Positions 14,601-17,326 of a stretch of DNA of 48,001 nt are shown here, one piece after another. Made by a program: the position numbers and the translations under genes. Numbering within the stretch: the first letter of the stretch is position 1; every line of letters begins with the position of its first letter. The stretch comes from Candidatus Dorea intestinavium (GTDB taxonomy: Bacteria > Bacillota > Clostridia > Lachnospirales > Lachnospiraceae): the NCBI GenBank assembly GCA_019113475.1, contig DXHJ01000175.1, positions 1-48,001 on the forward strand, in the 5' to 3' direction. Under the pieces are notes generated by a model. The model was not told the DNA's origin and did not search any database. It worked only from the letters and a program-made list of their open reading frames with translations.

Positions 14601-17087
14601 TTATTTTTTCTGCCTCTTGATCCATTCCATAATAATATCAACCACATAAGTTTGTTCTAGGTCCGTAAGCGGATGACCTTTGGGAATCTTATGCCATTTT
14701 TCTAAACAGCCGCGACAACAAGTTGCGGTAGCATGTTGAGCGATAAAAACCGGGTGACCTCGCATAGGGGTTTGCTTCCCATCATTTTTAGGTTTAGCCG
14801 GTGCCAGACGCTTCCCAATAAAATCACAAGCGTGATCTTTTACCACTTCCAGCCCTTTTTCCTCAACATAAGCCAAATCCTTTGCTTTTAAAGAGAAACT
14901 ACTGCGAAATTTTGATTGTGCTAGCCTTTGAAAAATATCCTCACTCTCTTTATTTTCTTCTTTCTTTTCTAACCTCTTTGCTAACTTCGTATTTCTAGCT
15001 GTAGTGGTTTCATTTTGAATAGCATAGGCTATCGCTTTCTTCTCGCCAATTAAAACTAGGATCTTTTTGGCCCTAGTTACACCGGTATAAAGTAGATTTC
15101 TCTGTAACATAACATAATGACTCATGGTAAAAGGCATAACTACAATGGGATATTCTGAACCTTGAGCTTTATGAATGGTTGTAGCATAGGCCAGGGAAAG
15201 TTCATCTAATTCGCTAACATCATAGAGAACTTCTCGACCATCAAAGTCTACTACTAGCTCTCGTTCTTCCCTATCTACTTTACAAATCATGCCAATATCC
15301 CCATTATAGACTTCCTTATCATAATCATTACGAATCTGCATAACTTTATCATGCAAACGGAACTGAGTTCCCCCTCTATTTAAGAAAACCTCCGTGGGAT
15401 TCAGCGCTTCTTGTAGTACCTGATTTAATTTTTCTGCTCCACAAGCTCCCCGCTGCATGGGAGTCAAAACCTGAATATCCGTTAAGGGATCCACCTGATA
15501 ATACTTGGGTAGATTATTTGTACAGTACTTGACTAATAAATCTACAATTTCTTCATTACCCTCTTTCGCAGCAAAGAAAAAGTCTGCTTCTTTTCCTCCT
15601 CGCAAATCAATGTTTTGTCCTTTATTAATGCGATGTGCATTCATAATAATGCGACTGCCTTGGGCTTGGCGAAAAATACGAGTAAGGCGAACAATCGGTA
15701 TTCGCCCAGATAAAATCACGTCTTTTAAAACATTTCCCGCTCCAACACTTGGTAGTTGATCCGTATCTCCCACCATAATAAGAGTCATATATTTGGGTAT
15801 TGCTTTTAACAAATTGTACATTAATATAATATCAATCATGGAGCACTCATCCAGAATTAGAACATCGCCGCTTAAAGGGTTTTCTTCATTTTTTTGATAA
15901 CCTTCTGGCGGTTTATATTCTAATAATCGATGAATCGTTGTCGCTTTCATTCCTGTAGCTTCTGACATTCTTTTGGCTGCCCGGCCAGTAGGAGCTGCTA
16001 AAAGAATGTCACATCCTGCCAGCTGATAGGCCTTAATTATCCCTAAAGTAGTAGTAGTTTTTCCTGTTCCCGGACCACCAGTTAAAACCATTACTTTAGA
16101 AGAGATGGCTACCCGAATTGCTTCTAACTGAATCTCATCATAGGTAATAGCCGCATCAGCAACCACTTTTTTCATAACGTTATCCACATTTAGAGACACT
16201 TTTCGCTCTGCACTCAACAACTGTAAGATTCTTTTTGCACTTCCTTCTTCAGAAAAATAAAAAGGTGGCAAGTAAATGGCCTCTTCCTCACGAATCAGGT
16301 CTTCTACCCTTAGCATTTCATCTAAGGTCATCTCTAGTTCCGGTTTTTCTACCTCTAGCAACTTCGCTGCTGTTTTAATAAGTTGTTCTCTAATGGCGTA
16401 ACAGTGGCCACTTTCTGCTAATTTATTCAGGGTATATAAGATACCACTTCTTAAGCGAATATAGCGGGTCTTATCAATCCCCAATTTTTCGGCAATGCTA
16501 TCTGCCGTTTTAAAACCAATGCCCCAAATATCATCAGCCAGGCGATAAGGATTTTCTTTTACTACCTTAATACTGTCATTACCATAAGTTTTATAAATCT
16601 TCGTAGCATGAGCGGTACTTACTTCATGACTTTGTAAAAAAAGCATAATATTCTTAATCTCTTTTTGCTCAATCCAACTTTTCTTAATCCGTTCCACCCG
16701 AACTTTGCCAATTCCTTCCACTTCTAAAAGTCTATCTGGTTCTCCTTCAATTATCTCTAAAGTGTCCTGACCAAACATTCTAACGATACGCTGGGCAAAC
16801 TTCGGACCTACTCCCTTTACTAAACCTGATCCTAAATATTTCTCAATACCATAGGCCGTTGCTGGTAGTGTTTCTTCAAATTTTTCCACAGAAAACTGCT
16901 TTCCATATTTCATATCACTTTTCCAAAATCCAGTTAAGAAAAGTACCGAGCCCACATGGGTATCTGGCATCATGCCAACGACCGTTACTAAGTCATGGTA
17001 GTTTTTTACTGCAACCTTTAGTACCGTATAGCCATTTTCCGTATTTTGATAAGTAATCCGTTCCACAACGCATCGTAACTGTTCCAC
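14601..17087 (-). CDS. recD2: RecD2-type SF1B helicase with a C-terminal DUF4186-like domain
   Basis: HhH region, Walker A 'LTGGPGTGKTTTTLGI', 'LDECSMIDI', 'GDTDQLPSVGAGNVLKD', 'LTRIFRQAQGS', 'ATTIHKAQGSEYPIVVMP', 'YTGVTRAKKILVLIG'. The C-terminal 114 aa (SEDIFQRLAQSKFRSSF...HPVFIAQHATATCCRGCLEKWH...VVDIIMEWIKRQKK) is not part of canonical RecD2. Confidence 0.9.
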   Translation of the reverse strand: MEQLRCVVERITYQNTENGYTVLKVAVKNYHDLVTVVGMMPDTHVGSVLFLTGFWKSDMKYGKQFSVEKFEETLPATAYGIEKYLGSGLVKGVGPKFAQRIVRMFGQDTLEIIEGEPDRLLEVEGIGKVRVERIKKSWIEQKEIKNIMLFLQSHEVSTAHATKIYKTYGNDSIKVVKENPYRLADDIWGIGFKTADSIAEKLGIDKTRYIRLRSGILYTLNKLAESGHCYAIREQLIKTAAKLLEVEKPELEMTLDEMLRVEDLIREEEAIYLPPFYFSEEGSAKRILQLLSAERKVSLNVDNVMKKVVADAAITYDEIQLEAIRVAISSKVMVLTGGPGTGKTTTTLGIIKAYQLAGCDILLAAPTGRAAKRMSEATGMKATTIHRLLEYKPPEGYQKNEENPLSGDVLILDECSMIDIILMYNLLKAIPKYMTLIMVGDTDQLPSVGAGNVLKDVILSGRIPIVRLTRIFRQAQGSRIIMNAHRINKGQNIDLRGGKEADFFFAAKEGNEEIVDLLVKYCTNNLPKYYQVDPLTDIQVLTPMQRGACGAEKLNQVLQEALNPTEVFLNRGGTQFRLHDKVMQIRNDYDKEVYNGDIGMICKVDREERELVVDFDGREVLYDVSELDELSLAYATTIHKAQGSEYPIVVMPFTMSHYVMLQRNLLYTGVTRAKKILVLIGEKKAIAYAIQNETTTARNTKLAKRLEKKEENKESEDIFQRLAQSKFRSSFSLKAKDLAYVEEKGLEVVKDHACDFIGKRLAPAKPKNDGKQTPMRGHPVFIAQHATATCCRGCLEKWHKIPKGHPLTDLEQTYVVDIIMEWIKRQKK

Positions 17088-17326
17088 CGCTAATTCTCCT
17101 ATTTATTTCCAAAAATAATTCTCGTTTTCCTTCATTTTAGCGATAGATGCTTGAGATAGCAAGAAATATGAATAAGATAGCTTATCATTCTGTTATATTG
17201 ACGCCTTTATTTTTCACTGCTAAGATATAAGATAATTAAGAAATAGGTACAGACAATACTCTATATTTTTAACATTTAAAATTTGCACTATATTTGCTAG
17301 GTTCCAAATATAGATAGGAGGCCGAC

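Follow-up and report, generated by a model that had tools for sequence, protein, structure and literature searches.

A second RecD2 helicase of gut-type Clostridia carries a complete C-terminal DUF4186 domain

The window, a stretch of 48,001 nucleotides from Candidatus Dorea intestinavium (contig DXHJ01000175.1), encodes on its minus strand a protein in which a RecD2 helicase continues without interruption into a DUF4186 domain. The gene and its parts are listed below, with residues numbered along the fused protein.

14601..17087, minus strand: recD2-DUF4186 fusion gene, 828 aa, GTG start, uninterrupted frame
17096..17100, minus strand: Shine-Dalgarno sequence AGGAG, 8 bases upstream of the GTG start, read directly
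14973..17069, minus strand: RecD2 helicase (TIGR01448), residues 7-705
16863..17087, minus strand: OB-fold domain OB_YrrC, residues 1-75, domain match
16398..16670, minus strand: HHH_RecD2 domain, residues 140-230, domain match
15741..16130, minus strand: AAA_19 motor domain, residues 320-449, with Walker A GGPGTGKT and DECSM inside, domain match
15243..15428, minus strand: SH3_13 domain of the helicase, residues 554-615, domain match
15048..15194, minus strand: UvrD_C_2 domain, residues 632-680, end of the helicase core, domain match
14940..14972, minus strand: linker, residues 706-716, about 11 aa, very short compared with other fused proteins
14616..14939, minus strand: DUF4186 domain (PF13811, whole profile), residues 717-824
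14766..14783, minus strand: DGKQTP motif, D769-P774, with D, G, Q and T invariant in 121 sequences
14691..14735, minus strand: H-x4-CC-x2-C-x4-H cluster of H785, C790, C791, C794 and H799, with H785, C790, C791, R792 and C794 invariant in 121 sequences

The sequence-only reading had described a RecD2 helicase with a complete DUF4186 at its C-terminus, and both profiles indeed match within the single 828-aa frame. TIGR01448 aligned over profile positions 2-712 of 713 (914 bits against a cut-off of 500, 5e-275) and PF13811 over positions 2-109 of 109 (178.6 bits against a gathering cut-off of 25, 3.7e-53); when the C-terminal segment was isolated, PF13811 matched it over its whole length with 184 bits. 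The bounds given earlier for the domain, 14601-14945, are corrected to 14616-14939. Accessory domains OB, HHH_RecD2, SH3_13 and UvrD_C_2 are all present, and the ATPase motifs GGPGTGKT, DECSM, GDTDQLPSVGAG and TGVTRAKK are intact. In this architecture, including AAA_19, the window protein resembles the RecD2/YrrC SF1B helicases of B. subtilis and D. radiodurans, from which it differs by the added C-terminal domain. A profile search of the assembly returned this protein as its single DUF4186. The neighbours of the gene read as metabolic genes, with no defence genes among them.

A scan of reference genomes combined with genome searches disclosed RecD2-DUF4186 in one frame at 14 non-duplicate loci including the window (the others being L007, L008, L009, L012, L013, L014, L022, L040, L056, L080, L095, L115, and L125). 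All 14 were assigned to Bacillota or to the family of the window, one of them to the isolate Faecalicatena contorta; the fusion thus occurs in at least 14 loci of gut-type Clostridia. Because the same open-frame fusion is repeated at these loci, it is not an artefact; a frameshift, indel, or assembly join, for which the region near 14945 had been singled out for checking, was rejected, as the frame is open there and the fusion recurs at 13 further loci. Full-length fused proteins that could be aligned share 72-79% identity with the window protein. Both domains are conserved, while the linker, at about 10-110 aa, varies in length and is poorly conserved; in one fusion (L009) the helicase half is broken. 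A survey of Gammaproteobacteria found few DUF4186 and no further fusion among these. The RecD2-DUF4186 fusion is thus real and conserved; as far as the literature was searched it is undescribed, joining a known helicase family and a known domain of unknown function.

The window's genome holds two RecD2 copies, an ordinary one of 739 aa (G000:C5:5610-7781) and, as the second, the fused helicase; the sequence-only reading had not seen this. Unfused RecD2 copies also occur in other genomes with the fusion, for example G026, G841, G809, G873, and G875. The RecD2 model matched at least once in 149 of 150 genomes of the window's family, whereas a copy of the second lineage was found in 12 of the 150, the window's genome included. 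Unfused members of this lineage are 58-65% identical to the window helicase, compared with approximately 42% for the family's ordinary RecD2 copies. A tree of 37 helicases set the second lineage apart by long, fully supported branches and gathered the 11 fused proteins with a full-length helicase into one clade (98% support). Members outside this clade are plain or bear an N-terminal RNase_T domain, a DEDD-type 3'-5' exonuclease, in one frame with the helicase; the two of the latter kind (L118, 1498-4350, minus strand; L119, 760-3738, plus strand) form a separate clade (support 98) and lack DUF4186. The exonuclease on these sister proteins indicates that the second lineage does take on DNA-acting domains. 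RecD2s that are 51-60% identical to the N-terminal third of the window protein, apparently unfused and in frames of 715-810 aa, were found in a number of other families within the class, and the second lineage may have been transferred in from such families. A tree of DUF4186 alone was poorly resolved and compatible with a single origin of the helicase-fused domains (p-AU 0.116), and a post-hoc single-origin test without the window copy returned p 0.03, so that DUF4186 may have been replaced on some fused helicases.

A peptide motif, [MK]VAExxxxYG, was observed in the linkers of eight fusions (L008, L009, L012, L013, L022, L040, L056, and L095) as well as at the extreme C-terminus of one RecD2 that lacks DUF4186 (L131); it is absent from the window protein. 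Further loci with the motif are L171, L172, L174, L177, L178, L180, L182, L184, and L186-L190. Searched as a DNA pattern, MVAExxxxYG matched about 32 times in 30 of the 150 family genomes, against 1 match for a reversed control, and about 13 of these were read in frame within 16 aa of a stop on unrelated proteins, among them type I restriction HsdR subunits, SymE, and a small zinc-ribbon-like protein. The motif may be a C-terminal tag for docking or degradation that these proteins share.

An alignment of 121 DUF4186 sequences revealed ten residues that never vary (G31, D55, G56, Q58, T59, H71, C76, C77, R78, and C80) and two histidines, H38 and H64, that are kept in 118 sequences each. The core DGxQTP ... 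H-x4-CCR-x-C, nearly invariant across the alignment, is present in the window domain, which is full length and keeps all the invariant residues of PF13811, the family of E. coli YneG; members of the family usually stand alone, at roughly 115-130 aa, whereas the window copy forms part of a helicase protein. The presence of three Cys and one His in a span of ten residues suggests a metal site, with the H...CCxxC residues as putative ligands. The H/C cluster had been put forward as a metal or active site, which is plausible for the invariant H71, C76, C77, R78, and C80; its last histidine, H85, is missing in at least one relative. The AlphaFold model of the domain, built from 73 sequences, is all-helical with six helices (pLDDT 92.6, pTM 0.86). 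A fold search of the PDB with this model gave no match (best E 1.5), no PDB relative was found by sequence, and a phrogs search with the domain had no match; sequence matches to KorB were dismissed as chance. The single significant match among viral structures was BFVD A0A481Z275, a 241-aa protein of Pithovirus LCPAC001 (E 2e-5, 32% identity), which holds a DUF4186-like fold and has no assigned function of its own. The model of the full-length fusion was poor (pLDDT 56), and no contacts between the domains could be read from it.

DUF4186 is also joined to partners other than RecD2. In Bacillota, it follows DUF5131 in three fusions (L066, 3233-4336; L085, 1845-3011; and, by sequence reading, L004, 1456-2706, minus strand), and the DUF5131 part bears a weak likeness to the radical SAM family TIGR04471, with a score below the cut-off. 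It precedes a GNAT within one protein (L067) and, on Streptomyces plasmids, forms the C-terminus of an AraC-type regulator with AraC_binding_2 and HTH_18 domains, two genes from uvrA (L163, 2924-4378). Plasmids of Roseovarius, Nostoc, and Tolypothrix (L164, L165, and L166) carry an HTH regulator, a divergent DUF4186, a radical SAM protein, further proteins, and a small kinase-like AAA protein, with an annotated ASCH protein in the strings of both cyanobacteria (two of the three plasmids). These similar gene strings look like an unnamed system. Among the loci examined, the neighbourhoods of stand-alone DUF4186 genes had no dominant partner gene.

Independent clues come from E. coli. In 2009, one large-scale study placed YneG, a stand-alone DUF4186, in a DNA-replication neighbourhood and found that the yneG deletion markedly lowered viability on an antibiotic replication inhibitor, like hypomorphs of DnaT, DnaA, and DnaE (PMC2672614). 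Together with the RNase_T domains on the second RecD2 lineage, this supports the earlier suggestion of a link to repair or replication. The motor is expected to act at forks; B. subtilis RecD2 is a 5'-3' single-stranded DNA translocase that prefers forked DNA (PMC12143592). In its general design, the fusion resembles B. subtilis DinG, in which a DEDD exonuclease is joined to a helicase as an extra DNA-processing domain for replication stress; DinG is of another helicase family, and its extra domain is unrelated to DUF4186 (PMC12525004).

These observations suggest that DUF4186 in the fused protein is probably a metal-binding module for processing DNA, held by a tether on a helicase that acts at forks. 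A DUF4186 gene that once stood alone would have been joined a single time, in a Lachnospiraceae-like lineage, to a second RecD2, probably through loss of the stop between adjacent genes. The motor would be loaded onto forks and single-stranded DNA and travel 5' to 3', like its B. subtilis counterpart, and would bring DUF4186 to forks or gaps. There the domain could act either on the exposed DNA or on a partner from replication or repair, most likely via a small metal site made of the invariant H...CCxxC and the DGxQTP loop. The tether is proposed because the linker varies in length, and we infer it together with the metal site and the action in replication stress. Specifically, the DUF4186 on the helicase tail would act in coping with stalled or damaged replication. 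As a whole, the explanation that a fused second RecD2 delivers DUF4186 to forks in replication-stress tolerance has, in our estimate, about an even chance of being right (roughly 0.5). In its favour we counted the full-length domains in one frame, the variable linker between constant domains, the single helicase clade, the ordinary RecD2 copies beside the fused ones, the exonuclease on sister RecD2s, the YneG phenotype, the invariant residues and confident fold of the domain, the fork preference of B. subtilis RecD2, and the fusion or adjacency of DUF4186 to radical-SAM-type proteins; against it, we counted the missing PDB fold match, the poor full-length model, the lack of a dominant neighbourhood, the sad-glsB setting of yneG, the origin of the YneG phenotype in a single large-scale study, and the fusions with a GNAT and with an AraC regulator, which give no specific pointer to DNA repair. 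The functional reading of the fusion is accordingly put forward as a supported hypothesis. More tentatively, DUF4186 in general could be an undescribed metal-dependent module for processing DNA lesions or forks, attached separately to RecD2, the DUF5131 protein, and the AraC-type regulator, with the RecD2 fusion as its helicase-delivered form.

Alternatively, loss of a stop codon may simply have joined neighbours, leaving DUF4186 as a passenger that still does what it does as a separate protein, with no bearing on the helicase. The genes for DUF4186 are scattered in their occurrence and seem to be mobile, being present on plasmids and in viral contigs, and the linker length is not conserved; at one locus (L011), RecD2 and DUF4186 are neighbouring ORFs in the same frame with one in-frame stop inside the linker. 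We nevertheless consider this unlikely, as one old and diverse clade of fused helicases keeps the domain full length with its invariant residues and the evidence tying YneG to replication is independent of the fusion. The idea of an accessory RecD2 whose added domain serves as effector or sensor against foreign DNA, in phage defence or on mobile elements, appears more doubtful still: the extra copy, its patchy distribution, the scores of RecD-like helicases and DUF5131 against PADLOC candidate-defence models, and the C-terminal peptide common to linkers and HsdR subunits would suit such a role, but within the fused protein the PADLOC matches are confined to the helicase part, the window copy sits among metabolic-looking genes, and the peptide is missing from it. 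Signs of membership in an anti-phage defence system were looked for and not found: no defence gene lies among the neighbours read, and DUF4186 has no PADLOC match in the fused protein. Least probable is a part for DUF4186 in nitrogen or amine metabolism or in thiol or metal sensing, by whose signal it would regulate the helicase, an idea that fits the clustered invariant Cys residues, the AraC-type fusion in Streptomyces, and the place of yneG behind sad-glsB in a sad-glsB-yneG operon regulated by YneJ with glutamine and putrescine use (PMC9283627), but that conflicts with the replication phenotype of the deletion and with unrelated neighbours at other loci, the operon link having been observed in the examined Enterobacteriaceae alone.

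As a domain, DUF4186 is both widespread and strongly conserved; it is uncharacterised, and few of the open-access papers searched name it. With the covalent tie to a fork-acting helicase and the little-noticed E. coli phenotype, its function is now testable, and yneG offers a simple model gene.
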